A stretch of 64,000 bases of DNA from Fimbriimonas sp. Lineage in GTDB: Bacteria > Armatimonadota > Fimbriimonadia > Fimbriimonadales > Fimbriimonadaceae. The stretch lies in contig JARLGV010000095.1 of assembly GCA_031292555.1 (NCBI GenBank), positions 1-64,000 of the forward strand, in the 5' to 3' direction. Shown here piece by piece: positions 47,959 to 61,847 of this stretch. The notes under the pieces are model-generated. The model made no database searches, was not told the origin of the DNA, and worked only from the letters and a program-made list of their open reading frames with translations. The first letter of the stretch is position 1. The number at the start of each line of letters is the position of its first letter. Position numbers and translations under genes: made by a program.

Positions 47959-49167
47959 CTAGGTGAGAGCCGGTTCCTGGTCGGGCTTGTCCCAGGGCGG
48001 AAGGATTGCGGTAAGGAACCACAAGATGAAGAAGGGGAGCAAGAGAATGATCATGAACGCGATCAGGCCCTCATGTCCTACCATCTGCAGTCGATACGTT
48101 GTGAGTCCTCGCAAGGTCTTTGAGAAGAGCTGGCCACCAATCACGACGTTCCAACGCATGGCAAACACGCCGATTAGAACGAGAGTGGACATGACGAGGT
48201 AGTAGCGGGTCTTGACGACGTCGCTTACTTTCGCCGCCTGCAGCACCGCGAGGGCGACCAGGGGAACGATGCCGCCCAAGAAAAGCTGGACGATGAACAA
48301 CGTGTAGTACATGTAGCCTGAACTGACCAGATGGAGCACATCGAACCATTCGCCTGCTTCATACATTCGGTGGACGATGTCCAGCGCCTCGAGGGTTAAG
48401 TCGAATATCAGGGCGAACATGAGGTACCGCCCGATCGCATTTGCGCACCGCATATCGATCTTCTGCCGCCGGTACCAGGTGCTGATCATGTAGATCAGGA
48501 AGACCATGGCGATGCCGGAGACGATGGCGGAGAGCAGGAAGATCAGTGGCATCAGGACGCTTGACCACCAAGGGTTGCCTTTGAGCGACCCGAAGATGAA
48601 GCCGACGTATCCGTGCAGAAGCACAGCAGACGGGATGCCAATTACGGTTAGGAATCGGCCCGCCTTCTCGTCGAATTCAAGCGCCTTGTGGGAAAGGTCC
48701 TTGACGCCTAGAGTGCAGACGGTGAAGAAGACCTTCATGATCGGCCCGGATTTCTCGGCGGCCAGCACCATGTCCTTACGATAGTCGAAATAGACCTCGA
48801 GCAAGAGGACAGCCATCAGGTACCAGGCGTAGACAAACCCGAAGATCGCCATCGCCGAAGTCAAGTGCGGAGTCATCATGATCTGGATGGCTCTTTCTGG
48901 ATGTCCCAAGTGGGCGACGAGGGGAAGCGGGGCACAGATCAGAAAGGCCAGGGCCGTCAGAAGGGCGAGGCGGTATGTAGGGCGCACTGCTTCCGCTTTG
49001 AATACACGTACTAACGACGCCAAGATGAATGCGCCGGCTACCAATCCGGTGATATAGGGGTAAAGAACGATGAGGATGCTCCATTGCAATTCCCCGCGTT
49101 CGTTCGGAAAGACGTAACCAGTTCCCTGAGCCAGCAAGTTCATTGGGTTCGCAAAAATCGGGTTCAT
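47959..49167 (-). CDS. NrfD/PsrC-type quinone-interacting membrane subunit
   Basis: 402-residue integral membrane protein with about nine hydrophobic helices, of the NrfD/PsrC family that exchanges electrons with the quinone pool. It starts 'FPNERGELQWSILIVLYPYITGLVAGAFILASL', typical of the first helices, and includes 'CAPLPLVAHLGHPERAIQIMMTPHLTSAMAIFGFVYAWYL' (the conserved His-Pro-Glu loop). Third gene of a leftward operon (tetraheme cytochrome, ferredoxin, NrfD) with a 4-nt gap to the ferredoxin gene. By analogy to NrfCD/PsrBC it links menaquinol and the FeS/heme partners. Confidence 0.93.
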   Translation of the reverse strand: MNPIFANPMNLLAQGTGYVFPNERGELQWSILIVLYPYITGLVAGAFILASLVRVFKAEAVRPTYRLALLTALAFLICAPLPLVAHLGHPERAIQIMMTPHLTSAMAIFGFVYAWYLMAVLLLEVYFDYRKDMVLAAEKSGPIMKVFFTVCTLGVKDLSHKALEFDEKAGRFLTVIGIPSAVLLHGYVGFIFGSLKGNPWWSSVLMPLIFLLSAIVSGIAMVFLIYMISTWYRRQKIDMRCANAIGRYLMFALIFDLTLEALDIVHRMYEAGEWFDVLHLVSSGYMYYTLFIVQLFLGGIVPLVALAVLQAAKVSDVVKTRYYLVMSTLVLIGVFAMRWNVVIGGQLFSKTLRGLTTYRLQMVGHEGLIAFMIILLLPFFILWFLTAILPPWDKPDQEPALT

Positions 49168-49171
49168 AGGA

Positions 49172-49987
49172 TCACACGACCTCCTTCGAAAGGCCCTTGT
49201 ACACGACCTTGGCGCCGGTTCGGAGTTGAGGCTTCAACGTCATAACCGGATTCTCACGGCAGAACTTTGATATGGGGCTATCCGGATCGGCAAGGTTCCC
49301 GAATATCCTTGCCTTAACCGGACATACCTCGACGCAAGCGGGCAGCTGTCCCTTCGTGATGCGGTGGTAGCAAAGCGTGCATTTGTCCGCTGTGTGTTTG
49401 TTGGGATTCCAGAAACGTGATCCGTATGGACAGGCCTGGATGCAGTAGCCGCATCCGATGCAGTATTCATAGTCAATGAGGACCACGCCCTCAGGACTCA
49501 GGAACGTAGCGCCCACTGGGCAGACCTGGATACACGGAGATTCGTCGCAATGATTACACAGCTTCGGCATGAAGAATGCCTTAGAAATCTGGTCTTCCGG
49601 AACCGTGTCCGTAAATCCGTCCTTCCCGCCATTCGGCGAATCGATGACGACCTCACCGTCCTTCTTAACGATATACCGCTCGACCCATGTTCGGAAATGT
49701 TCAGCGGGAACATCGTTCTCGGCACAGCAGGCATCGACGCACTTGCCGCATCCTATGCAAGCGGTTATGTCGACTGCCATCGAATACCACGGTGAACTCG
49801 GGTACCCGCGGATAGGCGTCAATTTGCGTTGGGCGAGCCTGGAAGTCAAGCTGTTCCATGAGGCATAGCCGGCAGCTCCCGCCATCAACAGTACGACGGA
49901 CTTGCCGGTAGCGGTCAGGAAGTCTGCCCGTGTCATGCCCTGGTCGGCAGAAGGAGATGTCTCGGTTGGTTGATCTTCCTTTCTCAT
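49172..49987 (-). CDS. Four-cluster ferredoxin subunit (NrfC/PsrB-like)
   Basis: 271-residue electron-transfer subunit with 16 Cys in four [4Fe-4S] motifs: 'CIGCGKCVDACC', 'CNHCDESPCIQVCP', 'CIGCGYCIQACP' and 'CTLCYHRITKGQLPACVEVCP'. The N-terminus has a hydrophobic stretch after 'MTRADFLTATGK', which resembles a Tat signal but with Arg-Ala in place of Arg-Arg. ATG 49987 overlaps the cytochrome stop by 4 bp. It should carry electrons between NrfD and the tetraheme cytochrome in the periplasm. Confidence 0.93.
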   Translation of the reverse strand: MRKEDQPTETSPSADQGMTRADFLTATGKSVVLLMAGAAGYASWNSLTSRLAQRKLTPIRGYPSSPWYSMAVDITACIGCGKCVDACCAENDVPAEHFRTWVERYIVKKDGEVVIDSPNGGKDGFTDTVPEDQISKAFFMPKLCNHCDESPCIQVCPVGATFLSPEGVVLIDYEYCIGCGYCIQACPYGSRFWNPNKHTADKCTLCYHRITKGQLPACVEVCPVKARIFGNLADPDSPISKFCRENPVMTLKPQLRTGAKVVYKGLSKEVV

Positions 49988-50637
49988 GATTTACTCCCTT
50001 TTGTCGTGGGCTGCGGCTTGGCGCTGGTCGGAGCCTTGGACGAGGTCTTGCTTGGGATCGAGCCGGCATCCGGAGGTCCGCTCGGTGAGGGCGCCGCGGT
50101 TGCCGCCGAATCCGCCTTGGGCGCCTTGTCCGGCACAGAGCCGGCGTCGGGGGGCGTAACGCCCGCCGGAATCTTGTTGTCTGGCGCCTTTAGGTCGGAC
50201 CTTGCCGCCTTCACATCCAACTTCATATGCATTTTGTGGCAATCGACGCACCTCTGGCCCGGGTTATGCTCGGACAAGTCGACTTGCGGGAAGGTGTCCC
50301 GTCTTGCCGCACTCATTGCATGGCAGGCGCCGCAGGCTGCGCGAGTCGGCATCACGGTGACGCCAATGCTGTCATCCTTGGCGTGGGCTGCTCCTGGACC
50401 ATGGCAGGATTCGCACGAAACGCCGTTTTGGGAGTGGGGAGCGGTATTGCCGTGGCATTTGATGCACGTTTCCTTTCCCGCGAACTTCTGAGGGTGGCCC
50501 TGCAGTTCTGCAAGCGCGGCATATCGGTAGTGGCCCAGCTTTCCAAAGGAATCTGGGACGACAACCGATTTTAGTCCGAGGAATGCGAAGACCAGGCAAC
50601 CAAAGACGATGCAGATTCGCGTCACTTGTGGTGTCAT
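49984..50637 (-). CDS. Membrane-anchored tetraheme cytochrome c
   Basis: 217 residues from ATG 50637 (the frame is open upstream to a GTG). N-terminal anchor helix ('ICIVFGCLVFAFLGLKSVVV'). Four heme sites: CIKCH, CESCH, CGACH and CVDCH, spread over residues ~50-130, with nearby His residues for bis-His ligation. The last ~65 residues are a Pro/Ala/Ser/Lys low-complexity tail containing two copies of 'PPDAGS(V/I)P(D/S)K'. First gene of the ferredoxin/NrfD operon. Likely passes electrons toward the periplasmic decaheme cytochrome encoded divergently 406 bp away. Confidence 0.9.
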   Translation of the reverse strand: MTPQVTRICIVFGCLVFAFLGLKSVVVPDSFGKLGHYRYAALAELQGHPQKFAGKETCIKCHGNTAPHSQNGVSCESCHGPGAAHAKDDSIGVTVMPTRAACGACHAMSAARRDTFPQVDLSEHNPGQRCVDCHKMHMKLDVKAARSDLKAPDNKIPAGVTPPDAGSVPDKAPKADSAATAAPSPSGPPDAGSIPSKTSSKAPTSAKPQPTTKGSKS

Positions 50638-50907
50638 GATTTTTACTGACCTGTCGATCGTGACCACAACTCACAAAGAAGTCGTGGTGACGACGTCTAG
50701 ACCAGTGTTAGCCGTAAACGGGACTCACCTACAAGCCATTGCTTTCAAGTCATTAGTATCACGGACAAAGATCCTTTGCCTTTTTTGATCCTAAATGGAC
50801 ACCGTGGAGGCTGAGATTTCGGAGTCGTCGAACCAGCCGATCCAGTGATTCAGCATCAAAAGGGGATGGGATGCTTCGCGCACATCCGTTTCATGAGGTG
50901 ACTTCTA

Positions 50908-50964
50908 ATGACACGGCCCATATTTGATGGATTTGACGATTATCTGCCTTTCCTGATGCGCTAA
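50908..50964 (+). promoter_or_regulatory. Candidate leader ORF (18 codons) in the divergent region
   Basis: The 406-bp region 50638-51043 between the two cytochrome operons contains an ATG at 50908, with AGGTGA six bases upstream, encoding MTRPIFDGFDDYLPFLMR and stopping at TAA 50962-50964, directly before a hairpin. It resembles an attenuator-type leader but has no obvious run of regulatory codons. Translation is unproven. The rest of the region holds a small CAAAG-ATC-CTTTG hairpin followed by a T-run (about 50768-50790) and otherwise nothing I can name. Confidence 0.4.
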
Positions 50965-50995
50965 TCTCAATTCGCTGGACTAACCAGCGTTGAGA
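50965..50995 (+). promoter_or_regulatory. Leader hairpin before the decaheme cytochrome gene
   Basis: TCTCAA-TT-CGCTGG (50965-50978), loop ACTAA, CCAGCG-TTGAGA (50984-50995): a 12-bp stem with a 2-nt bulge. It starts at the base after the leader ORF stop and ends 48 bp before the decaheme GTG start. Confidence 0.5.
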
Positions 50996-51043
50996 GACTC
51001 GATTCGCAGGGTATGTGGCGGACGACTCAATGGAGACTGGGAC

Positions 51044-52057
51044 GTGAAAATACAAGCGCTAGTGCTCAGTATAGGAATCGCAAGCCTCGTATTCGGGGCG
51101 ATGCAGGCCGGCAAATCACCGGCCGCTAAGGCTACGGCTGACAAGCCAGATAAAGAAGTTATTCAGATCAACCAAAGGTTCTCTCAGGCCAAGCCTGAAG
51201 ACTACATCGGAGATGCCGCCTGCGTCGAATGCCATTCGACCAAGTCGCACTCGTTCAATGAGTCGGCTCACTTTGCCTTCATGTCCGACCCGAAGCTTCC
51301 GCTATCCCAGCGAGGTTGCGAAGGATGCCATGGCCCAGGCAAGGCGCATCAAGACAACCCCGACACGGAAGTCATTTCGTTCGGCAAATTGAGTCCGAAA
51401 GACTCGGCTGCGGCTTGCCTTCGCTGCCACGCGCAGACGATGGACAAGTCAAGCTGGAAGCACACCGAGCACGCGAAAGCCAATCTCGCCTGTGTGACAT
51501 GCCATCAGATCCATCCAGACACCGATTTGGCATTGGAAGACCAGGCGCTCAAGAAGGGGCGCACCGTCGATCCGAAGAGCATCGCTCATTTGGCGAAGCA
51601 GCCTGACAAACAACTGCTGCTAAAGGCTGACGAGATAACGCTCTGTGGCCAGTGTCACCAGAGCGAGGTCGCACAGTTCCGATTGAGCTATCACCACCCG
51701 GTGCTTGAAGGTCAGTTGGTTTGCAGCGACTGCCACGCAACCCACCCTTCGAAAGCAGCTCAGTCTAAGCAGAGCGCATTCAAGAGTAAGTGCGTGACAT
51801 GCCATGCCGACAAAGCTGGACCGTTCGTGTACGAACACGATCCTGTGGCCGGATTCGGTGGCAGCGGCTGTGAAGAGTGTCACAGTCCGCACGGGTCGCA
51901 GAACCCGAACATGCTCGTCACGAGAACTCGTGGGCTGTGCGCCCAGTGTCACTCGGACAAACTCGCCACCCACCATCCGGGTGAGACCTGTTGGTCAGCC
52001 GGATGCCACGTTGCACCTCACGGTAGCAACAGCAGCAATCGTTTCTTGAGCTATTAG
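51044..52057 (+). CDS. Periplasmic decaheme cytochrome c, MtrA/DmsE-like
   Basis: 338 residues from GTG 51044 with GGAG 8 bases upstream; upstream frame is read through but lacks a signal. Signal peptide 'MKIQALVLSIGIASLVFGAMQAG'. Heme motifs: nine CXXCH (CVECH, CEGCH, CLRCH, CVTCH, CGQCH, CSDCH, CVTCH, CEECH, CAQCH) plus one CX4CH ('CWSAGCH') near the C-terminus, making ten hemes in a length equal to MtrA (~330 aa). It is followed 12 bp later by an MtrB-like barrel gene, as in MtrAB/PioAB conduits. It should carry electrons across the periplasm into the barrel. Confidence 0.93.
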   Translation: MKIQALVLSIGIASLVFGAMQAGKSPAAKATADKPDKEVIQINQRFSQAKPEDYIGDAACVECHSTKSHSFNESAHFAFMSDPKLPLSQRGCEGCHGPGKAHQDNPDTEVISFGKLSPKDSAAACLRCHAQTMDKSSWKHTEHAKANLACVTCHQIHPDTDLALEDQALKKGRTVDPKSIAHLAKQPDKQLLLKADEITLCGQCHQSEVAQFRLSYHHPVLEGQLVCSDCHATHPSKAAQSKQSAFKSKCVTCHADKAGPFVYEHDPVAGFGGSGCEECHSPHGSQNPNMLVTRTRGLCAQCHSDKLATHHPGETCWSAGCHVAPHGSNSSNRFLSY

Positions 52058-52069
52058 GAGGAATTGACG

Positions 52070-53800
52070 ATGAAGCGATGGATAACACCCCTGGCAGTCG
52101 TCGCCGGAACGGCAGTGATGCTGGCTTGTGCCAACGGGCAAGAGGCCCCTACTACCGCTCAAGACGCTGCGCAATCTTCATCCGGCAAGCAGGCGCCAAA
52201 AACTGCTACGAAGAAGCAGAAGCCGGCGGCTGAGAAGAAGGATGCACAGGCGGACCAATCGGCAAAGGATGATGCAAAGAAGAGCGATGCATCGGACGAT
52301 TCGGAAGCGAAACCCCTTCTGAATACGCTCGACCTCGCCTACACGACGTGGAGTTCGACTCGAAACATCAACACGATCCACCGTAACGGTTATGTTCAGG
52401 GCGGATTCGGGATAGCCGATCTCAAAATCCTCGAGCCGTTCGAGACGGACCACCTGATGTGGTTCGATTTCAAGGGCAACCCGTCCAACGACTACGGGAC
52501 GCGTTTAGTAACTCAGTGGGGGGATGGCACGACCCTCAAGGCAGGGGCGGGAGAGTTCTCATACTACGAGCCTAGCTTTGGCACAAACCTGCCGAGTCAA
52601 GATAAGTCCTGGGACGTATCGATCGATCGGCAGTTGGCGCCCAATTTCGGGGCATTCGTCGCTTATCGGTACGACGAATCGCAACATCACTTTCCGGCGC
52701 CGTATGCTCAGCCTAACTATAACAACAGCACGGCTTCATTTGGGATCCAGAAGGGAATGGGCGACACGACGATCGGAGTGACGTTAAGCGAAAACCGCTT
52801 TAGCGATCTTCTCCAGATCCAGCCAAACACCCTGACCGATCGAGGCGAAATGCGCCTGTCGAATACGTCGGGCAACCTGTCGACGCAAGCGGTTGCTGCG
52901 ACTACGATGATCCAGCAGCCCGGCGAACAGAAGAGCTTCATTCGCGATTACGGCTTGAGCGGGATCTACGACGTGTCGGAGAATTCCAACCTCGCCGCGC
53001 AATGGCACGAGCAGATCCTCGATCTCAACTCGGTCCAGAACGCCTATGTTCGAAAGAAGGTTAGCACCGGAGCGACCTATGATCTGCGGCTCGGAAACTG
53101 GGGCGCTGCCCTTGGGTTCCAACATCGGGAAGAAGAGCGCGTACGAGCTGATCACAGCTTCGTCGATGTACCCAAGTGGAATACATGGGACTTCAAGTTG
53201 ACCGGGCGCCTTGCAAAGGCCTACCGTGTAAGCCTTAAGAGCACGATCGAGGACCTTACGACCTCCCCCGTCTTCCTGACTGACGATCCTTCACTGCTCT
53301 ATTGGAGCCGCAAGGAAACCGTCGCAGCGAAGATCAGCACAGGGAACACGATCAACACCGGTTATTTCACCTATACCTACCGCTATCGACAGAACAACGA
53401 TCGCGGCCTCTCGGTTAATTGGTATAACTTTGCGCTAGGCGGGAGCCGGGTGTTTTCACCCAAGCTGCTCGGTTACGCCGAGTTCGCTTCCGATCAGTAC
53501 AACTCCGGTGGCCAATCCGCCCAGGATTCGGCCATTGGCAGCTACTTCCCGTCAAGCGAGACGTTCATGTTTGGATTGGATTACACGCGCAATTCGCGCG
53601 AAAACCTATCCCTCGTCCTGTCAAGTTTCTACACCCAAGACGAATGGGGCCAGCAAGTTGCTGTGACCTATCATCTGGACTGGGGTAAGGAACGCAACCT
53701 GCAAATCACCTATTCCCCTTGGCTCCAACGGGATCGACTCTATGACGTGGACACTTTCGACGCACCCATCTTACAAGTGAAAGTCGGAACCCGATTCTAG
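52070..53800 (+). CDS. Outer-membrane beta-barrel, MtrB/PioB-like
   Basis: 576 residues from ATG 52070, with AGGAGG about 8 bases upstream. Signal peptide (residues 1-24), then a Lys/Ala/Asp-rich low-complexity segment, then a long run of alternating-residue beta strands separated by turns ('LNTLDLAYTTWSSTRNINTIHR...', 'YFTYTYRYRQNNDRGLSVNWYNFALGG'), ending in 'LQVKVGTRF' with terminal Phe, the outer-membrane targeting mark. The barrel has no Cys, unlike Shewanella MtrB, which has an N-terminal CXXC. Position right after the decaheme gene supports a porin-cytochrome conduit role. Shorter than typical MtrB (~690 aa). Confidence 0.85.
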   Translation: MKRWITPLAVVAGTAVMLACANGQEAPTTAQDAAQSSSGKQAPKTATKKQKPAAEKKDAQADQSAKDDAKKSDASDDSEAKPLLNTLDLAYTTWSSTRNINTIHRNGYVQGGFGIADLKILEPFETDHLMWFDFKGNPSNDYGTRLVTQWGDGTTLKAGAGEFSYYEPSFGTNLPSQDKSWDVSIDRQLAPNFGAFVAYRYDESQHHFPAPYAQPNYNNSTASFGIQKGMGDTTIGVTLSENRFSDLLQIQPNTLTDRGEMRLSNTSGNLSTQAVAATTMIQQPGEQKSFIRDYGLSGIYDVSENSNLAAQWHEQILDLNSVQNAYVRKKVSTGATYDLRLGNWGAALGFQHREEERVRADHSFVDVPKWNTWDFKLTGRLAKAYRVSLKSTIEDLTTSPVFLTDDPSLLYWSRKETVAAKISTGNTINTGYFTYTYRYRQNNDRGLSVNWYNFALGGSRVFSPKLLGYAEFASDQYNSGGQSAQDSAIGSYFPSSETFMFGLDYTRNSRENLSLVLSSFYTQDEWGQQVAVTYHLDWGKERNLQITYSPWLQRDRLYDVDTFDAPILQVKVGTRF

Positions 53801-53850
53801 GCAATGAGTGAAATGAGACCGAATTCGAAGGGACAAACAACGGAGGACTT

Positions 53851-55377
53851 ATGAAAGCACGATGGCTTACATTGTTTGCATGCGTCCCAGTGATCGTCGG
53901 AACTGTGTTGCTGCAGAGCTGCGGCGGCGTTGGCGGACCTGCCAGTCCGTCCACTTCGTCTGGCTCGAGTGCCCCAACGCAGGCATTCCTGGCGCTCTTG
54001 ACGCCTGAACAAAAGGCCTCAAAGACGATCGGGCCAGTGGCGTGCGCCGCGGCGAACTGCCACGGAGGCCCAACGACCTCGAAACACGTGGCGGGTCACC
54101 TGACCTCGCTGACGGCATCGGGAGACACCGGCCAGTACGACACCTGGAAGAACACCGTCCACGCGTCGAAAGGCGTGACATGCGAAAGCTGCCACGGCCC
54201 CGGCGGAGCGCACCAAGCGATGCCTACGAACACCGACGGTACGCCGCACGCCATATTGACGTTCCCGCTGATCGCATCGGCGACGGTTTGTGGCCAGTGC
54301 CACGGTCCGCTGCATGATGACTGGGCTGGGTCCAAGCACGCGCAAGTGATCTCGACCCCTGTCACAGAGGCAGCAAGCGCTGAACAAAGTTCACAGTGCT
54401 TTGTTTGCCATGGCGGATTGGTTCGAGCTCAGTACCTCGAAAACGGAATCCCACCTGAGCAGATGACCTTAGCGCAGATAACGACGGTAGGACTAAACAC
54501 TTGGGTTCCTGGCACGACATCCAACCCGGCCGGTAGTCCTGGTCCGATTCCGAACACCGCAACGTGCTCGACGTGCCATAACCCGCACGCCAAGATGGGC
54601 AACGTGAGCAGCGCGACTGGCAAAGACGTCCAGATCTACCACTCGGAAGCTCTGACCGACAGCAGCGGAATCGTCGCGGGCACCACTGTTCAGCAGTATT
54701 CGAGGATAAACCAAGTCTGCGCTCAGTGCCACAATGGACGCGCCACTGACGGATCTGATGCTGCCCTTCTGAAGAGCACCTCTCGATCCTCGGCTCACCA
54801 TAGCAATCAGTTCAACTCGCTACTCGGAGTTGGCGGAAACGAGACGCCGGGCGGACCTCCGCAGCGATCGGGTACCCACGCGTTGGCTCCCGGCCAATGC
54901 GCCAATTGTCACATGCCGGCTTCTCGACACACGTACACGGTCAGCTACGAAGGTTGCGCACCGTGCCATACGGTTACTGACGCGGCCGCTCGTGCTTCGG
55001 CTCTTCAAACGGAGATCGTCGACGACCTAACCGCGCTGAACACCGAGATGTCCAACTGGGCAACCACGACCTTCGGCGCCGCCGACGGATGGGACTTCTC
55101 GTCCAACCAGAGCCCGAATCTGAACAATCAGGCGAAGATCCCGCTCGCCATTCTACGAGCGCGACACAACTACTACTATGAGGTTATCTCGGGCGACTAC
55201 GGCGTGCATAACCCCGCGTACACTCGCTACCTCATGCAGTGGGCTGAGACCAACCTGCAGACCCTTGGCCTGCCCAAGGCGAACATGGACGAAATCAAGA
55301 AAATGCCCATGTCAACGAAACTCAGTATGCTGAAGGCTGCCCGCCAAAGAACGGCAAAAGCCAACAGCCCCTACTAG
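53851..55377 (+). CDS. Octaheme cytochrome c, probable cell-surface lipoprotein
   Basis: 508 residues; GGAGG four bases before ATG. The signal ends 'VLLQSCGG', a lipobox-like site at about Cys24. Eight heme motifs: one CX4CH ('CAAANCH') then CESCH, CGQCH, CFVCH, CSTCH, CAQCH, CANCH and CAPCH. The C-terminal ~120 residues are heme-free and helical ('LQTEIVDDLTALNTEMSNW', 'IPLAILRARHNYYYEVISGDYGVHNPAYT'). Following decaheme and barrel genes, it fits the terminal, surface-exposed cytochrome of a conduit (functional counterpart of MtrC), though it is not a clear MtrC homologue. A long palindrome follows. Confidence 0.85.
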   Translation: MKARWLTLFACVPVIVGTVLLQSCGGVGGPASPSTSSGSSAPTQAFLALLTPEQKASKTIGPVACAAANCHGGPTTSKHVAGHLTSLTASGDTGQYDTWKNTVHASKGVTCESCHGPGGAHQAMPTNTDGTPHAILTFPLIASATVCGQCHGPLHDDWAGSKHAQVISTPVTEAASAEQSSQCFVCHGGLVRAQYLENGIPPEQMTLAQITTVGLNTWVPGTTSNPAGSPGPIPNTATCSTCHNPHAKMGNVSSATGKDVQIYHSEALTDSSGIVAGTTVQQYSRINQVCAQCHNGRATDGSDAALLKSTSRSSAHHSNQFNSLLGVGGNETPGGPPQRSGTHALAPGQCANCHMPASRHTYTVSYEGCAPCHTVTDAAARASALQTEIVDDLTALNTEMSNWATTTFGAADGWDFSSNQSPNLNNQAKIPLAILRARHNYYYEVISGDYGVHNPAYTRYLMQWAETNLQTLGLPKANMDEIKKMPMSTKLSMLKAARQRTAKANSPY

Positions 55378-55395
55378 CAGCTAGTGTGGTTATAA

Positions 55396-55425
55396 AACAG
55401 GACTTGCCCTAGGGCAAGTCCTGTT
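55396..55425 (+). terminator. 30-nt perfect palindrome between octaheme and ccmF genes
   Basis: AACAGGACTTGCCCT (55396-55410) and AGGGCAAGTCCTGTT (55411-55425) with no spacer (a hairpin with about 4 nt as loop), 19 nt after the stop. It probably attenuates read-through into ccmF, or ends the cytochrome operon. Confidence 0.65.
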
Positions 55426-55451
55426 CCACACTCAGGGCAAGGAATTCCATC

Positions 55452-57854
55452 ATGGATGAGGCTATGACACCTCCCGTCCCGCCCGACTGGTCTCTCACAA
55501 CTGGGGATTTAGGTCGTTACGCAGTTTTACTGGCTGCGCTTCTCTTTACCTTCGCAACCGTCGGTTGGCTTCTCGCCCCCCGGATGCCGAAGCTGAGCAA
55601 GGTTGCATCGATCGCGATCACGATCGGCGTACTGAGCCTCTTTACCGCGTTTGTCAGTCTTGGCGCTTTATTCGTAGGGAATCGATTCGAATACGGCTAC
55701 GTCTACCAGCACGGCGATAACACCAACGCTTTGGCGTACAGAATAGCCGGGATCTGGTCCGGACAGCAGGGAAGCTTCCTGCTATGGGCATGTGCCTCTG
55801 GCCTGTTCCTAATCCTAACGGCTCGAGGTACCGGAGCTTTTCGAAGGTGGTATTCGGTCGCCTACGGGACGTTCATGGCTGCCCTAGCCGGCATCCTGGC
55901 ATTCGAATCGCCATTCGATTTGGCCCGGGTGGACGGTCAGGTCGTCGTGCCGGCAAATGGAGCCGGTTTAGCCCCATCGCTTCAGAACTATTGGGTCACG
56001 ATTCACCCGCCGACCATCTTCCTCGGCTTTGGAGCACTAACGGTTCTCTTTGCCTATGGCTTCGCCGCGCTAGTGGAGGGAGACTTCACAAACTGGCTGA
56101 AGCAGGTTCGACCGTGGGCTCTCGTTGCCACATCTCTGCTCGGTCTGGGACTCTGCATGGGAGGCTTCTGGGCCTACGAAACACTCGGATGGGGTGGCTT
56201 CTGGATGTGGGATCCAGTTGAGAACGTTAGCTTCGTTCCGTGGTGCATATCCATCGCTTTTATCCATGGAATTGTCATACAGACAGCTCGTGGCACCAAG
56301 AAATTCGGAAACCTCTTTCTGTCGGGAATGCCATTCCTTTCCTTCCTCTATGGCACGTTCCTGACCCGATCAGGATTCCTTGCCGATGCGAGCGTACACA
56401 GCTTCGCCGAAATGAACCGGTCGGCTCTCAAACTCCTGATCGGCCTAATGGTGATCGCCTTTGGTTCATTCGCGGGTCTGATGATCTGGCGATCGGTGAC
56501 TGAGCGTCGCAAGGCTGCCACCGTTGCCGAGAATTCGGCCGAAGCGTCCGCCTTTGGTCGCGAATCGCTCATTAACATTGGAATTGCCACTGTGTCGGCT
56601 ATCGGCGTCGCGACGCTTATTGGAATGAGCATTCCCTTCGTACAAGCTCTTCGGCATCAGCCGTCGAAGGTGGTGGAAGAGGGCCTCTATCATCAGGTTC
56701 TGACCTGGTTCTTCATCCCGACCTTGATACTCATGGCGATTGCTCCGTTTGCATCGTGGCGAAAGGCCACTGCGAAGGACGCGATCAACCGGTTCTATTC
56801 GATCCTCTGCGTTTCGGTCGGGGTTACCGGCTTGTTCATGATCAGCCTGGTCTATACGCCGTTTGGCAAAGTTGTCGATCATTCGCCGGTGGTGACGCTG
56901 GTCGGCAAACACAATCTGCCCGGAATGGCCTGGATGCTGTTCTTGGTGGGTACGTGCAGCTTTGCTATCATCGGCAACGTTTGGCGGATCGCTGAACTCC
57001 GAAAGGCGAGCAGATTGGGCTGGTCTCCTTTCCTTGCCCATATCGGCCTGGTCATGTTGATGGTCGGTCTGATCGTATCGCGAGGATTCGAGCAGAAGGA
57101 CCAGATCATGGTCATGAAGGACCACCCCGGAAAGGCGCTTGGATACGTTTTCAAGTACCGAAAAATGACGTCGACGGACCACGATCACAACAACCACGTG
57201 TTGTTCGACGTCTACGACGCGGACGATCCAAAGCAACTCCTCTTTACCGCTGCTCCGGGTATGTACAAAGTGCCCGCCGATGATGGCAACGAGAACACGA
57301 TGGTATGGCCGGCGATCGTCCACCGTCCCCTATACGACGTGTACGTGTCACTTAGGCCGCCTCAGGGCGAGGTTAGTGACCCTATGCCCATCAAGGAAGG
57401 CGAGACCAAGGTCTTCGGTGGTCTCGTCATCAAATACGACAAGATGTCCATGAATGGGCAGCCCGGTCAACCCGGGACGGCATTTGTAGCCAATCTCGCC
57501 ATTAGTGCCGGCAACAAGACACGGATGGTTCAGCCATCCATCTCGCTGGGCTCCGACGGTGGCCCGACTCACCAGAGTGTTGCCCTTGACGACAACCTTA
57601 AAGTCTCGGTGGCATCCATAAATGCTGCCGACCGCTCCATCAACCTCCAATTTGAACTGAATGACCCCATGTACCCCATCGACGTGTATCACAAGCCGAT
57701 GGTCATGCTTGTATGGCTGGGTACCGGGTTAATGACCGTAGCTGGACTCTTAGTAGCTGTATACCGGCGTGTTCCTTATGTGTCGAAGGCCGCCGAGAAG
57801 GTAACGGCGCCTGCAGCCAAGAAAGGCCAGCGACTCGCAAAGCAGAATGTATAG
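55452..57854 (+). CDS. ccmF: Cytochrome c heme lyase subunit CcmF
   Basis: 800-residue multi-pass membrane protein of the heme-handling family. It has the WWD signature 'WGGFWMWDPVENVSFVPW', the 'NYWVTIHPPTIFLGFG' His segment and 'LSGMPFLSFLYGTFLTRSGFL'. About 12-14 TM helices are followed by an extracytoplasmic C-terminal domain (~550-740) with a His-rich 'DHDHNN' patch, then a last TM ('MLVWLGTGLMTVAGLLVAVYRRV'). CcmF is usually ~650 aa, so the C-terminal part is long. It attaches heme to CXXCH motifs, matching the dense hemes nearby. Other Ccm genes are not in the window. AAGGA precedes ATG. Confidence 0.94.
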   Translation: MDEAMTPPVPPDWSLTTGDLGRYAVLLAALLFTFATVGWLLAPRMPKLSKVASIAITIGVLSLFTAFVSLGALFVGNRFEYGYVYQHGDNTNALAYRIAGIWSGQQGSFLLWACASGLFLILTARGTGAFRRWYSVAYGTFMAALAGILAFESPFDLARVDGQVVVPANGAGLAPSLQNYWVTIHPPTIFLGFGALTVLFAYGFAALVEGDFTNWLKQVRPWALVATSLLGLGLCMGGFWAYETLGWGGFWMWDPVENVSFVPWCISIAFIHGIVIQTARGTKKFGNLFLSGMPFLSFLYGTFLTRSGFLADASVHSFAEMNRSALKLLIGLMVIAFGSFAGLMIWRSVTERRKAATVAENSAEASAFGRESLINIGIATVSAIGVATLIGMSIPFVQALRHQPSKVVEEGLYHQVLTWFFIPTLILMAIAPFASWRKATAKDAINRFYSILCVSVGVTGLFMISLVYTPFGKVVDHSPVVTLVGKHNLPGMAWMLFLVGTCSFAIIGNVWRIAELRKASRLGWSPFLAHIGLVMLMVGLIVSRGFEQKDQIMVMKDHPGKALGYVFKYRKMTSTDHDHNNHVLFDVYDADDPKQLLFTAAPGMYKVPADDGNENTMVWPAIVHRPLYDVYVSLRPPQGEVSDPMPIKEGETKVFGGLVIKYDKMSMNGQPGQPGTAFVANLAISAGNKTRMVQPSISLGSDGGPTHQSVALDDNLKVSVASINAADRSINLQFELNDPMYPIDVYHKPMVMLVWLGTGLMTVAGLLVAVYRRVPYVSKAAEKVTAPAAKKGQRLAKQNV

Positions 57855-57863
57855 GAAATCAAA

Positions 57864-58193
57864 ATGAAACGAACAATCTCGATTCTCGCTCTCGTAGCAC
57901 TCGGGGCATGCGCCTTGCCCACAACCGCCAGCTGGAAGGTTTTCCAGGCCAAGTACAAAATCGAAAAGGAATCCAAGATCGGTACTGCTACCTGCCTGAA
58001 CTGCCATCTTAGCAAGAAGGGCGGCAAACTGAATCCGTATGGCCTCGACCTCAAGGCTGCCTTGAAGGCTGAGAGCACGAAGAAGCTCACTCCCGAAATT
58101 CTTGCCAAGGTCGAAGGACTCGACTCCACCAAATCCGGAAAGACGAATATCGCCAAGATCAAGGCCGATATCGTCGTCGGCGAGAAGGACTAG
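57864..58193 (+). CDS. Small exported monoheme cytochrome c
   Basis: 109 residues, 9 bp after ccmF. Signal peptide 'MKRTISILALVALGACALPTTA' (cleavage near residue 22-24). One heme motif 'CLNCH' within 'TATCLNCHLSKKGGKLNPYGLDLKAALKA'. The C-terminal end 'VEGLDSTKSGKTNIAKIKADIVVGEKD' resembles a degenerate EF-hand/type-3 repeat. It is homologous to the N-terminal part of the next gene. Likely a soluble or surface electron shuttle for this locus. Confidence 0.85.
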   Translation: MKRTISILALVALGACALPTTASWKVFQAKYKIEKESKIGTATCLNCHLSKKGGKLNPYGLDLKAALKAESTKKLTPEILAKVEGLDSTKSGKTNIAKIKADIVVGEKD

Positions 58194-58274: not shown

Positions 58275-58308
58275 TGGGCTAACCGAACAGAGTAGATCGG
58301 TTAGCCCA
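58275..58308 (+). terminator. Stem-loop between the two monoheme genes
   Basis: Perfect 12-bp arms TGGGCTAACCGA (58275-58286) and TCGGTTAGCCCA (58297-58308), 10-nt loop, 82 nt after the first monoheme stop and 162 nt before the next start. No T-tract; may be a terminator or leader element. Nothing else is evident in 58194-58469. Confidence 0.55.
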
Positions 58309-58469
58309 GATTCTGCATGCCGAAGGGATTTGCGAAATGGCTTTTTCGTTTCATGACGACAGAATGGCCAATTTAGGTTGTCCATGAACACGGTTTTTGG
58401 TCATGGGAAATAACGACTTACCCTGACGCGCAAAACTGGTTAATACTCATTCCCGGAGTGAACTATAAG

Positions 58470-59264
58470 ATGAAGTTCCGTTATCTGATCGTGTTTGTCT
58501 TGATGAGTATCGCTGGATCCGTATTTGCGAAGAGCGAGTTCCTCGACCTCTTCATGACGACGTACAAGATCAACGACAGCTCGGTCTTGGGACAGAAGGC
58601 GTGCCTTATCTGCCACCAGACGGAGGACGACTATACGAAGATGACGCCATATGGGCGCGATCTTAAGAAGGGACTTGCAGATGCGGGAACCGACACTCTC
58701 AATGTAGACATCCTGAAGACTGTCAGCAAACTCGACTCGAACGGCACCGGCAAGACTAATTTGGAGAAGATCGAGGCGGGCATCTCGCCGGGCGAGCCGG
58801 CCCCGGCTGGCGCAAACAATCCACCAACTCCTCCCGCTCCGCCAAAGCCAAAGTCGATCATTCCCAAGAACGGATTCCATCCGGCGGTAGTTCACTTTCC
58901 GATCGCGCTTTTTATCGGTGGACTCTTCCTCGATGCGTTAGGACTCATTCGCAAGAACCGTCACCTCCTTTTGGCCGGTTGGTACAACATTTTGATGGCA
59001 ACCGTCACATCGTTCGGAGGGATGGCTACTGGTCTCTTGGCCATGTACGTTCAGAAGGTGCCGTTCCGGGGACTGATCCTCACCCACCTCTTTCTCGCCG
59101 TAATCTCAGTTTTAATGATGGTGATGATGGTCGGACTTCGAGTCGACCGTCACGAGAAGATGCACCTGCCTACTCGCATTGCCTACTACATCCTGGCAAC
59201 GCTCTGCTTTGTTCTGATCTCCTATGCTGGTCACCTGGGAGGGGCGTTCGTCTACGGCGAATAA
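58470..59264 (+). CDS. Monoheme cytochrome fused to DUF2231 membrane domain
   Basis: 264 residues from ATG 58470 (GGAG upstream; an in-frame GTG at 58458 overlaps that site). Signal peptide 'MKFRYLIVFVLMSIAGSVFA'. Residues ~25-110 are a monoheme module: 'ACLICHQTEDDYTKMTPYGRDLKKGL', ending 'LDSNGTGKTNLEKIEAG'. A Pro-rich linker follows, then a DUF2231-type four-TM domain beginning 'FHPAVVHFPIALFIGGLFLDALGLI'. The His in 'HPAVVHFP' could ligate a cofactor. This fusion puts a c-heme directly on a membrane domain and may be a second entry point for electrons. Confidence 0.85.
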   Translation: MKFRYLIVFVLMSIAGSVFAKSEFLDLFMTTYKINDSSVLGQKACLICHQTEDDYTKMTPYGRDLKKGLADAGTDTLNVDILKTVSKLDSNGTGKTNLEKIEAGISPGEPAPAGANNPPTPPAPPKPKSIIPKNGFHPAVVHFPIALFIGGLFLDALGLIRKNRHLLLAGWYNILMATVTSFGGMATGLLAMYVQKVPFRGLILTHLFLAVISVLMMVMMVGLRVDRHEKMHLPTRIAYYILATLCFVLISYAGHLGGAFVYGE

Positions 59265-59322: not shown

Positions 59323-60408
59323 ATGACACACGCTACACGTATCGATTTCGCTCAACGTCCCATGCTCGTGTATTGGGAAACGACTCAAGCCTGTCCCCTC
59401 GCCTGCAAGCACTGCCGGGCGTCGGCAATGCCGCACGCTCATCCCGATCAACTCAGCTTCGATGAGGGCCTCCGTCTCCTGGACGGCATCGCCTCCTTCG
59501 GCGATCCGCTTCCTCATCTGGTACTCACCGGCGGAGATCCGTTGCATAGGGACCGACTGTTCGACCTGATCGCAGAAGCGCGAGCGCGCGGCATCAGAGT
59601 TTCGATTACTCCTGCAGCGAGTCCGTTCCTGACCAAGCAGGTGTTCGAAGAACTGAAAGCGGCCGGCGTCGAGAGCCTTGCGCTCAGCTTGGACGGATCG
59701 AACGCGACCCGGCACGACGATATTCGCCAGGTACCCGGATGCTTCGACATCACCATTCAAGCGGCGAAATGGGCCGGTGAAGTTGGGTTGCCGCTCCAGG
59801 TGAATACGTTGGTTTCGGAAGAGACGGTGGACGATTTGGATAACGTCTACCAACTATTGCACGGCTTCCCGGTGATGCGTTGGAGCCTCTTCTTCCTGAT
59901 TGCGGTGGGCCGTGGCAAGCAACTCAATGAAGTCGATCCGATCGGTGGAGAAAAGATCATGCACTGGGTGCAGCGATTGGTCCCCGTTTCGCCATTCCAG
60001 ATCAAGACGACAGAAGCGCCATCCTACCGGCGGGTTGCCTCTGAAGCGATGAAAGAGCAGGGCATGACCGCCGACCAAATCCGATCCACCAGCGTCCATG
60101 CCGGCTATGGGATTCGGGATGGCAACGGCATCGTGTTCATTTCGCATACTGGCAAGGTCTATCCTTCAGGCTTTCTTCCGCTGGAAGCGGGAGACGTGCG
60201 ATTTACGCCGCTTCAGGAAATCTATCAAAGTTCCGAAGTGTTCCGGACTGTTCGCGACGTCGACGGGTTCGACGGAAAGTGCGGGCACTGCGAATATCGA
60301 CGGATCTGCGGAGGATCGCGAGCTAGGGCGTTTGCTCACACCGGAAACCCTGCCGGCAGCGATCCGCTTTGCGATTACGAGCCGGTCGCTCATATGGCGA
60401 TCGCCTGA
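59323..60408 (+). CDS. Radical SAM/SPASM protein (heme-biosynthesis type)
   Basis: 361 residues. Radical SAM cluster motif CX3CX2C in 'TTQACPLACKHCRASAM', and a C-terminal SPASM-like auxiliary cluster 'GKCGHCEYRRICGGSRARAFAHTGNPAGSDPLC'. The overall pattern, 'IDFAQRPMLVYWETTQACPLACKHCRA', is that of the TIGR04053/AhbC-like subgroup involved in alternative heme (siroheme-dependent) or heme d1 pathways. It lies just before protoporphyrinogen oxidase and after cytochrome genes, suggesting a role in heme supply. Exact reaction uncertain. Confidence 0.85.
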   Translation: MTHATRIDFAQRPMLVYWETTQACPLACKHCRASAMPHAHPDQLSFDEGLRLLDGIASFGDPLPHLVLTGGDPLHRDRLFDLIAEARARGIRVSITPAASPFLTKQVFEELKAAGVESLALSLDGSNATRHDDIRQVPGCFDITIQAAKWAGEVGLPLQVNTLVSEETVDDLDNVYQLLHGFPVMRWSLFFLIAVGRGKQLNEVDPIGGEKIMHWVQRLVPVSPFQIKTTEAPSYRRVASEAMKEQGMTADQIRSTSVHAGYGIRDGNGIVFISHTGKVYPSGFLPLEAGDVRFTPLQEIYQSSEVFRTVRDVDGFDGKCGHCEYRRICGGSRARAFAHTGNPAGSDPLCDYEPVAHMAIA

Positions 60409-60470: not shown

Positions 60471-61847
60471 ATGACCATGGCACGAATCGTCATCATTGGG
60501 GGTGGGATCTCAGGCCTCAGCGCGGCCTACGACATTCACCGCGACGGACATCACCAGGTCACCCTACTCGAAGCATCTGATCGTTGGGGTGGCAAGCTTG
60601 TGACACACCGGCAGCAAGGACTGCTGATCGAAGGCGGACCCGATTCGGTGTTCACCTCGAAGCCGTGGGCGGTGGAACTAATGGCGGAATTGGGCCTTGA
60701 GGCTGAGTTCGTCGAACCGATCGGAAGCGGCTTTTCAATCCTCTCTGGAGGGAAACTGCACTCTGTCCCACGCGCGATGGCGAGTCTCATTCCGTCCGCG
60801 AACAGCGCTTTGGAGTCGATCGGCTTCCTTTCTGCCGCAGCAAGGCGAAGGATTCGATCTGAGGGCAACGTTCCAAAGGGCACGGGCGGAGACGAGACGA
60901 TAGCCTCTTTCTTCCGCCGGCGATTCGGAAACCACTTTTCGAAGTCCTTGGCGGAACCGCTTCTGGCCGGGATACACGCAGGTGACGCCGAAGTGCTGAG
61001 CATGAAGGCCCTCTATCCATCGTATATCGGGCTGGAACAGAAGAACGGCAAGCTGACGTTCGACGCTATTCCGGGGGCTCCTGTCTCTGGGGGAGCGCAT
61101 TCGCCGCGTAGGGCAGGCTTCCTGACGCTGAAGGACGGTGTTCAGCGTCTTGTCGATGTCTTGGTGGCCCGCCTGGATGGTGCGGATCTGCGACTGAACA
61201 GCCGGATCGATTCATTGGAACGAGTTGGGGACGGGCACTTCCAGATTGGGGCATCGGCGACGATCGATGCAGATGCTGTGATCTTCTCAATCCCGTCCTA
61301 CACTGTCGCCAAGCTGCTGGCGGGGGTGGCTCCTGACGCCGCCGGTCAGCTCGCCAGCATCCGCCATGCTTCAACTGCCGTCGTGAGCCTTGCCTATCCA
61401 ATCGATGCCTTTCCGCATGGCTTTCATGGCAACGGCTTCCTGGTTCCCGCCGACGAACCGGCTTCAATCACGGGATGCACGTTCAGTTCGTCAAAATGGC
61501 CGGGTCGGGCACCGGAAGGCGTTGGGCTCCTCCGAGCGTTTATGGGACGGGATCGTGGGCTCAACGTCGACGAATACTCCGACGAACAATTGTTACAGAT
61601 GGCGATGGAGACCGTCACCAAACAGCTTGGTGTCCAAGTCGAACCAGTTGTTTGCCGGGTCGATCGCTGGACACGAGCGATGCCCCAATATGAAGTGGGT
61701 CACGTTGAGTTGATGGAACGCATCGAAGCGGCGCTAGGTGATTTCCCGATCTTTCTGGCTGGCGGATCATTCCGAGGAACCGGCATTCCAGATTGCATCA
61801 AGCAGGGCCGGCACTCTGCCCGAAAAGTACTGGACCGATTTGGCTAG
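60471..61847 (+). CDS. hemY: Protoporphyrinogen oxidase (HemY type)
   Basis: 458-residue FAD enzyme of the heme/coproporphyrin pathway, oxidising the porphyrinogen to the porphyrin. FAD-binding 'IVIIGGGISGLSAAYDIHRDGHHQVTLLEASDRWGGKLVTHR', 'IEGGPDSVFTSKPWAVELMAELGL', and the C-terminal FAD motif 'FLAGGSFRGTGIPDCIKQGRHSARKVLD'. The start at ATG 60471 has an in-frame ATG two codons on. It follows the radical SAM gene and meets a convergent GNAT gene with a 4-bp overlap. Whether the product is protoporphyrin or coproporphyrin III cannot be read from sequence. Confidence 0.93.
   Translation: MTMARIVIIGGGISGLSAAYDIHRDGHHQVTLLEASDRWGGKLVTHRQQGLLIEGGPDSVFTSKPWAVELMAELGLEAEFVEPIGSGFSILSGGKLHSVPRAMASLIPSANSALESIGFLSAAARRRIRSEGNVPKGTGGDETIASFFRRRFGNHFSKSLAEPLLAGIHAGDAEVLSMKALYPSYIGLEQKNGKLTFDAIPGAPVSGGAHSPRRAGFLTLKDGVQRLVDVLVARLDGADLRLNSRIDSLERVGDGHFQIGASATIDADAVIFSIPSYTVAKLLAGVAPDAAGQLASIRHASTAVVSLAYPIDAFPHGFHGNGFLVPADEPASITGCTFSSSKWPGRAPEGVGLLRAFMGRDRGLNVDEYSDEQLLQMAMETVTKQLGVQVEPVVCRVDRWTRAMPQYEVGHVELMERIEAALGDFPIFLAGGSFRGTGIPDCIKQGRHSARKVLDRFG

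Follow-up and report, generated by a model that had tools for sequence, protein, structure and literature searches.

A predicted MtrAB-type porin–cytochrome conduit with an octaheme surface lipoprotein in Armatimonadota

Gene organization of the locus

The window, by which we mean the whole analyzed stretch of 64,000 nucleotides, belongs to a genome assembly of 6.46 Mb. An NrfD-type module and a cytochrome–barrel gene cluster diverge from a 322-bp intergenic region, and further genes follow the cluster on the plus strand:

47959–49167, minus strand: NrfD-type integral membrane quinol dehydrogenase subunit (PF03916, 144 bits against a cut-off of 25.8; 8 TM-like segments in a hydropathy scan)
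49172–49987, minus strand: ferredoxin-like protein with four 4-Cys cluster motifs, NrfC/TtrB/DsrO-like (Fer4 Pfam matches)
49984–50667, minus strand: membrane-anchored tetraheme cytochrome c in a NetB/NrfB-like position (4 CXXCH)
50668–50989, no strand: divergent intergenic region of 322 bp between the NrfD module and the conduit (from the sequence)
50990–52057, plus strand: MtrA/DmsE-type decaheme periplasmic cytochrome (9 CXXCH and 1 CX4CH; MtrA profile match)
52064–53800, plus strand: 26-stranded outer-membrane beta-barrel of MtrB fold (AlphaFold model; Foldseek; VIA-align)
53851–55377, plus strand: predicted octaheme surface lipoprotein, OcwA/NrfA-superfamily-like (8 heme motifs; lipobox; OcwA profile match)
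55452–57854, plus strand: CcmF/NrfE-family heme lyase for cytochrome c maturation (PF01578; PF16327; TIGR00353, 235 bits)
57864–58193, plus strand: small periplasmic monoheme cytochrome, candidate shuttle (1 CXXCH; N-terminal hydrophobic segment)
58458–59264, plus strand: monoheme cytochrome fused to a DUF2231 membrane domain (PF09990; relatives occur downstream of the conduit)
59323–60408, plus strand: radical SAM/SPASM protein TIGR04053, related to the heme b synthase AhbD; probable associate (454.8 bits against a cut-off of 395)
60471–61847, plus strand: flavin amine oxidoreductase, protoporphyrinogen oxidase-like (HemG/HemY type); probable associate (PF01593, 187 bits)

The initial annotation had described positions 47959–58193 as a complete candidate extracellular electron transfer locus, and every gene that it named is present there. 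Its NrfD and CcmF assignments agree with the Pfam matches listed above, and a motif script returned its heme counts (10 motifs in the decaheme protein, 8 in the octaheme and 4 in the tetraheme). These counts are far above chance, since shuffled proteins of the same composition contain on average fewer than 0.1 CXXCH motifs and at most 2. The ferredoxin described as having 16 Cys contains 18 in total, 16 of which fall within the four cluster motifs; the sole Cys of the barrel, described as Cys-free, lies in the predicted signal peptide, so that the mature chain is indeed Cys-free. No strong repeat was detected in the intergenic region at 50668–50989. A perfect 12-nt inverted repeat with a 10-nt loop, possibly a terminator or an operator, is located at 58275–58308 between the two monoheme genes.

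The decaheme cytochrome and the outer-membrane barrel

A profile of decaheme orthologs (n = 14) matches MtrA of the Shewanella Mtr complex (PDB 6R2Q, chain 6r2q_A; MtrB is 6r2q_B) at E 6.6e-43, which makes MtrA its nearest solved relative. The protein scores 196 bits against the GSU2203 decaheme family model and 190.2 bits against the DmsE family model, just under the cut-off of 192.2. A hydropathy scan places a hydrophobic segment at the N-terminus, and the true start is probably the GTG at 51044. Eleven non-motif His residues are conserved in at least 95% of the orthologs (n = 55), sufficient for bis-His ligation of all ten hemes. The tenth motif takes the expanded form CX4CH (CWSAGCH) across most of the phylum; orthologs at loci L066–L068 have two expanded motifs, and those at L074 and L131 have ten plain CXXCH.

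The barrel gave no match to MtrB/PioB sequence models. PF11854 found none of 14 members of the barrel family at E ≤ 10, nor the barrels of loci L066, L071 and L082, and, as a positive control, it does recognize barrels adjoining MtrA relatives in other phyla. Used alone as a query against public genome contigs, the barrel returned no matches; the public-genome loci analyzed below were gathered with the decaheme alignment as query.

The stop between the decaheme and barrel genes is in frame, and the pair was read through (TAG as Gln) and folded together by AlphaFold, using an alignment of 23 related rows of which 3 are also read-through pairs. The fused model, which contains no heme, placed the barrel only: the barrel part has 26 strands, mostly at pLDDT 80–98, and the decaheme part has a pLDDT of about 35–60. 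With the barrel model as query, Foldseek ranks MtrB (6r2q_B) first at E 7.3e-15. VIA-align, whose rows cover the barrel part of the fused model only, gives MtrB a Z score of 26.5 (rmsd 2.8 over 481 residues), with the next fold 9 lower at Z 17.2. As judged by the predicted structure, the barrel has the MtrB fold. The resemblance to MtrB/PioB claimed in the initial annotation thus fails at the level of sequence profiles and holds at the level of fold, and a refutation based on sequence is overturned, since the structural comparison puts MtrB on top.

The octaheme lipoprotein

The motif script counted seven CXXCH motifs and one CX4CH in the octaheme protein. The protein also has a lipobox (LQSC); its Cys is present in 46 of 47 orthologs, and the only sequence without it is truncated at a contig end. 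Across these 47 orthologs the eight motif His residues are invariant, and exactly eight other His are 94–100% conserved; the first heme motif varies between CXXCH and CX4CH. No CXXCK motif occurs in the window protein. With eight conserved distal His for its eight hemes, the protein probably leaves no catalytic heme open and, at the level of sequence, looks more like an electron wire than an enzyme.

By octaheme profile the nearest solved relatives, ahead of NrfA-type enzymes, are OcwA (Thermincola potens, 6I5B; E 4.5e-12) and, at E 1.1e-10, 6QVM, which we take to be an OmhA-like multiheme of Carboxydothermus ferrireducens. Both are surface multihemes of organisms that perform extracellular electron transfer (EET), and they appear to share with the octaheme the C-terminal helices with an HN motif. 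The alignment to OcwA lies mostly around the heme motifs and this HN motif, and the relation of the octaheme to OcwA and NrfA, as read from the profiles, is therefore distant. OcwA differs in having nine hemes, two of them with open sites, whereas the octaheme has eight hemes, eight conserved distal His, a lipoprotein signal and a porin alongside. OcwA itself acts as a terminal reductase at the cell surface, and its relatives include NrfA but not MtrC (PMC6703420).

The AlphaFold model of the octaheme is poor (mean pLDDT 46.6) with confident C-terminal helices; with this poor model Foldseek found no match at E ≤ 0.001, and the comparison with OcwA gave E 3.9 and an rmsd of 2.6 over 103 columns. 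Membership of the MtrC/OmcA family was considered and rejected, as TIGR03507 gave no match. The score of 39.8 bits against PF22113 (MtrC/F domain II/IV) is to be read with the fact that this model also matches other multihemes.

Distribution and synteny in the phylum

Among the 80 best public loci, 38 are Armatimonadota decaheme loci, and the decaheme, barrel and octaheme genes are contiguous and in conserved order in 29 of these. Of the other nine, two have no octaheme; in the remaining seven a contig end interrupts the locus or the ORF calling obscures it. None of the 42 loci with MtrA relatives from other phyla among the same 80 carries this barrel or octaheme. The order recurs in relatives of the same genus, family and order and in further families of the phylum. 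Full-length octaheme orthologs (E ≤ 1e-60) are present in 61 of 291 phylum genomes, from 11 families, in a search that scored the top five candidates per genome and may miss paralogs. In near families the trio is followed by CcmF and then one or two monohemes, and the small monoheme at 57864–58193 is conserved after CcmF in relatives.

The trio does not recur within unrelated dissimilatory operons: a molybdopterin enzyme lies near it at one locus only (L027). A DmsEFAB-like role was rejected on the same observation. The L027 gene (16294–18954) is the sole molybdopterin oxidoreductase found near any trio, at a locus that also carries an NrfD module.

The NrfD module and other quinol modules

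The ferredoxin-like protein scores 197 bits against TtrB, 172 against DsrO and 160 against NrfC, all below the curated cut-offs. The tetraheme has one hydrophobic segment, at its N-terminus in a hydropathy scan, and weak matches, both far below cut-off, to NetB (NF049875, E 2.3e-4) and NrfB (E 0.0011). NrfD orthologs share 66–79% identity in 11 other genomes and 45% in a twelfth (G183).

The module occurs in 13 of the 291 phylum genomes, and 12 of these 13 have the conduit, compared with 61 of 291 overall. Hypergeometric probabilities of this co-occurrence are 3e-8 by genome and 4e-6 by genus, both optimistic on account of phylogenetic dependence. The module lies near the conduit in only three of the 13 carriers (the window, G005 and G031), being divergent in the window, about 5 kb off at L022 and inside the cluster at L027. 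Identities within the module are at odds with those of the conduit: compared with the same-genus genome G005, NrfD and the ferredoxin are 75% and the decaheme 78% identical, and compared with G028, from another genus, NrfD is 79% (79–80% for NrfD and ferredoxin) and the decaheme 54% identical. This discordance suggests transfer or replacement of the module. In one genome (G044, contig C19, L093:8254–10745) the module was found alone, with no barrel or octaheme found in the genome, and at L092 the gene opposite the module encodes a NapC/NirT-type heptaheme.

Other conduit loci carry different candidates for quinol oxidation, namely multiheme proteins fused to cytochrome b561 (L023, L025) and a cytochrome b/b6 accompanied by a large multiheme (L020). 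We infer that the NrfD, b561–multiheme and cytochrome b modules are interchangeable quinol oxidizers. The initial annotation had treated the locus as a single complete unit, which is not supported, since in most carriers the NrfD module is found away from the conduit, and relatives rely on different ones; the module is a loose partner of the conduit.

Heme maturation and genome context

The genome has three CcmF paralogs in all (contigs C3, C12 and C16, the last being the contig of the window), one of them beside CcmE, and the copy at the locus may be a dedicated heme lyase. Adjacency gives no support to its dedication to the CX4CH heme in particular: several loci with a CX4CH motif have no adjacent CcmF. 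With three CcmF in the genome, such a dedication may nevertheless exist. The TIGR04053 radical SAM protein is also found near the conduit at L021, L022, L070, L082 and L083, and at L021 a homolog of the amine oxidoreductase adjoins both. The recurrence of the radical SAM gene beside the conduit in other families hints at a dedicated heme supply, and the amine oxidoreductase at 60471–61847 is probably a protoporphyrinogen oxidase. A large survey found a periplasmic octaheme, CcmA-I and heme-synthesis genes near mtrCAB (PMC8805035).

The genome carries menaquinone genes, a heme-copper oxidase and a probable alternative complex III (ACIII), and no RuBisCO was found in it. Given the probable ACIII and the oxidase, aerobic respiration is probably the main mode and the conduit an auxiliary route.

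Proposed function

The MtrA match, the MtrB fold, the lipobox and the synteny all agree with the initial annotation of an MtrAB-type porin–cytochrome conduit with an octaheme surface lipoprotein. Based on these observations, we propose as the probable function a trans-outer-membrane conduit with a replaced surface cytochrome that would export electrons from menaquinol, where the assembly of the complex, the surface location, the link to NrfD, the direction and the acceptor are predictions. Menaquinol oxidized by NrfD at the inner membrane would yield its electrons to the ferredoxin subunit with its four clusters and to the membrane-anchored tetraheme; transfer across the periplasm could then fall to the small monoheme or the tetraheme, and the decaheme, inside the 26-stranded barrel, would pass the electrons through the outer membrane. 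From there the octaheme lipoprotein may deliver them to an extracellular acceptor: an Fe(III) or Mn(IV) mineral, humics, a shuttle or a partner cell. CcmF, and probably also the neighboring heme-synthesis genes, would supply maturation. Export is the best reading because menaquinone genes are present, RuBisCO is absent and the alternative modules are of quinol-oxidizing types.

The same conduit could run inward, with an external donor such as Fe(II) supplying electrons that pass via the octaheme and decaheme to the oxidase or, by way of NrfD, to quinone. Conduits of the MtrA type can work in reverse, as in MtoAB and PioAB, and the probable ACIII and heme-copper oxidase would suit such a flow. 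The isolate names of same-genus MAGs suggest stratified lakes, boreal and other, and an Armatimonadota MAG has been annotated with an MtoA close to PioA/MtoA (PMC9671151). The lack of RuBisCO and the fact that NrfD and b561–multiheme modules oxidize quinol in characterized systems argue the other way, and we regard inward flow as unlikely. We consider it quite improbable that the octaheme, fed by the conduit, works outside the cell as an enzyme of the NrfA/OcwA/HAO superfamily on nitrite, hydroxylamine or similar in place of minerals. The profile relatives are mostly NrfA-family enzymes, and OcwA shows activity on hydroxylamine and a slow reduction of nitrite (PMC6703420), but the eight hemes and eight non-motif His suggest that all hemes are bis-His with no open site, and the window protein lacks the CXXCK motif, in contrast to OcwA with its two open-site hemes.

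As a further alternative, the NrfD module may be no partner of the conduit but a mobile quinol:cytochrome c module that is a neighbor by chance. Its proximity to the conduit in only three carriers, the one carrier without a conduit and the incongruent identities favor a chance neighbor, but the conduit in the other 12 carriers, and the placement of the module at the window, L022 and L027, weigh against it, and we consider the chance association rather unlikely.

Comparison with known systems

Like MtrCAB of Shewanella (6R2Q), the locus encodes an MtrA-family decaheme, a 26-stranded barrel of MtrB fold and, alongside, an outer cytochrome lipoprotein. Unlike MtrCAB, its barrel has no detectable MtrB/PioB sequence signal, its outer cytochrome is an octaheme outside the MtrC/OmcA family, its decaheme has one CX4CH heme and its gene order is A–B–surface cytochrome. 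In NetBCD with MtrCAB, SirCD and Geobacter Cbc4 (CbcSTU), as is predicted here, a cytochrome, a ferredoxin-type protein and a membrane quinol-oxidizing subunit feed EET, and the membrane subunit of NetBCD and SirCD is of the NrfD/PsrC type found here. Unlike in NetBCD, the tetraheme is only weakly NetB-like and the module is unlinked to the conduit in most relatives. NetBCD is an Nrf-like inner-membrane quinol dehydrogenase functionally characterized with MtrCAB (PMC8805035), and SirCD is able to replace CymA (PMC11434368); both contradict the statement in the initial annotation that no characterized conduit has an NrfD-type module. NrfD-type entry to such a conduit is thus already known.

A large MtrCAB survey, whose search needed an MtrC, found the system in three phyla only (PMC8805035). 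Such surveys would miss the conduit described here, whose surface cytochrome is of another kind and whose barrel escapes MtrB models. An MtrA-family decaheme has been reported once in the phylum, as MtoA in MAG mg024 of class UBA5829, in a report whose accessible part describes no barrel, octaheme, synteny or phylum-wide distribution (PMC9671151). Relative to the main texts of the open-access literature, what is new is the phylum-wide trio, a barrel family missed by sequence models and an OcwA-like lipoprotein in place of MtrC.

More tentatively, the trio may represent an ancient, mostly vertically inherited Armatimonadota conduit, in which a barrel family of MtrB fold and an OcwA-type cytochrome bridge the Gram-negative porin–cytochrome and Gram-positive surface-reductase designs, and in which the quinol module (NrfD, b561–multiheme or cytochrome b) is freely swapped; we hold this broader reading possible without giving it preference. 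If true, a phylum whose members are seen as aerobic heterotrophs would have the export of electrons among its core traits. If the conduit is functional, this little-studied phylum with few cultured members gains a testable trait, the exchange of electrons with minerals or partners.

Variation among conduit loci

If the conduit is functional, its loci would offer a ready-made series in which quinol modules and surface cytochromes are exchanged on a single conduit core. An additional 8-heme cytochrome lies between barrel and octaheme at L066 (7649–8779), L067, L068 and L120. At L026 (21–3182) a tandem pair of octaheme lipoprotein genes follows a single barrel, and at L071 (1656–8279) two decaheme–barrel pairs are in tandem, with an octaheme after the second only. 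A clear Armatimonadota trio is also present at L110 (JADZEW010000016.1), titled 'Methanoregulaceae archaeon', which is probably a mislabelled MAG. In two distant families, proteins with 32 CXXCH (L083:8636–10789) and 28 CXXCH (L074:4927–6840) adjoin the conduit and are possibly cytochrome filaments or long wires.
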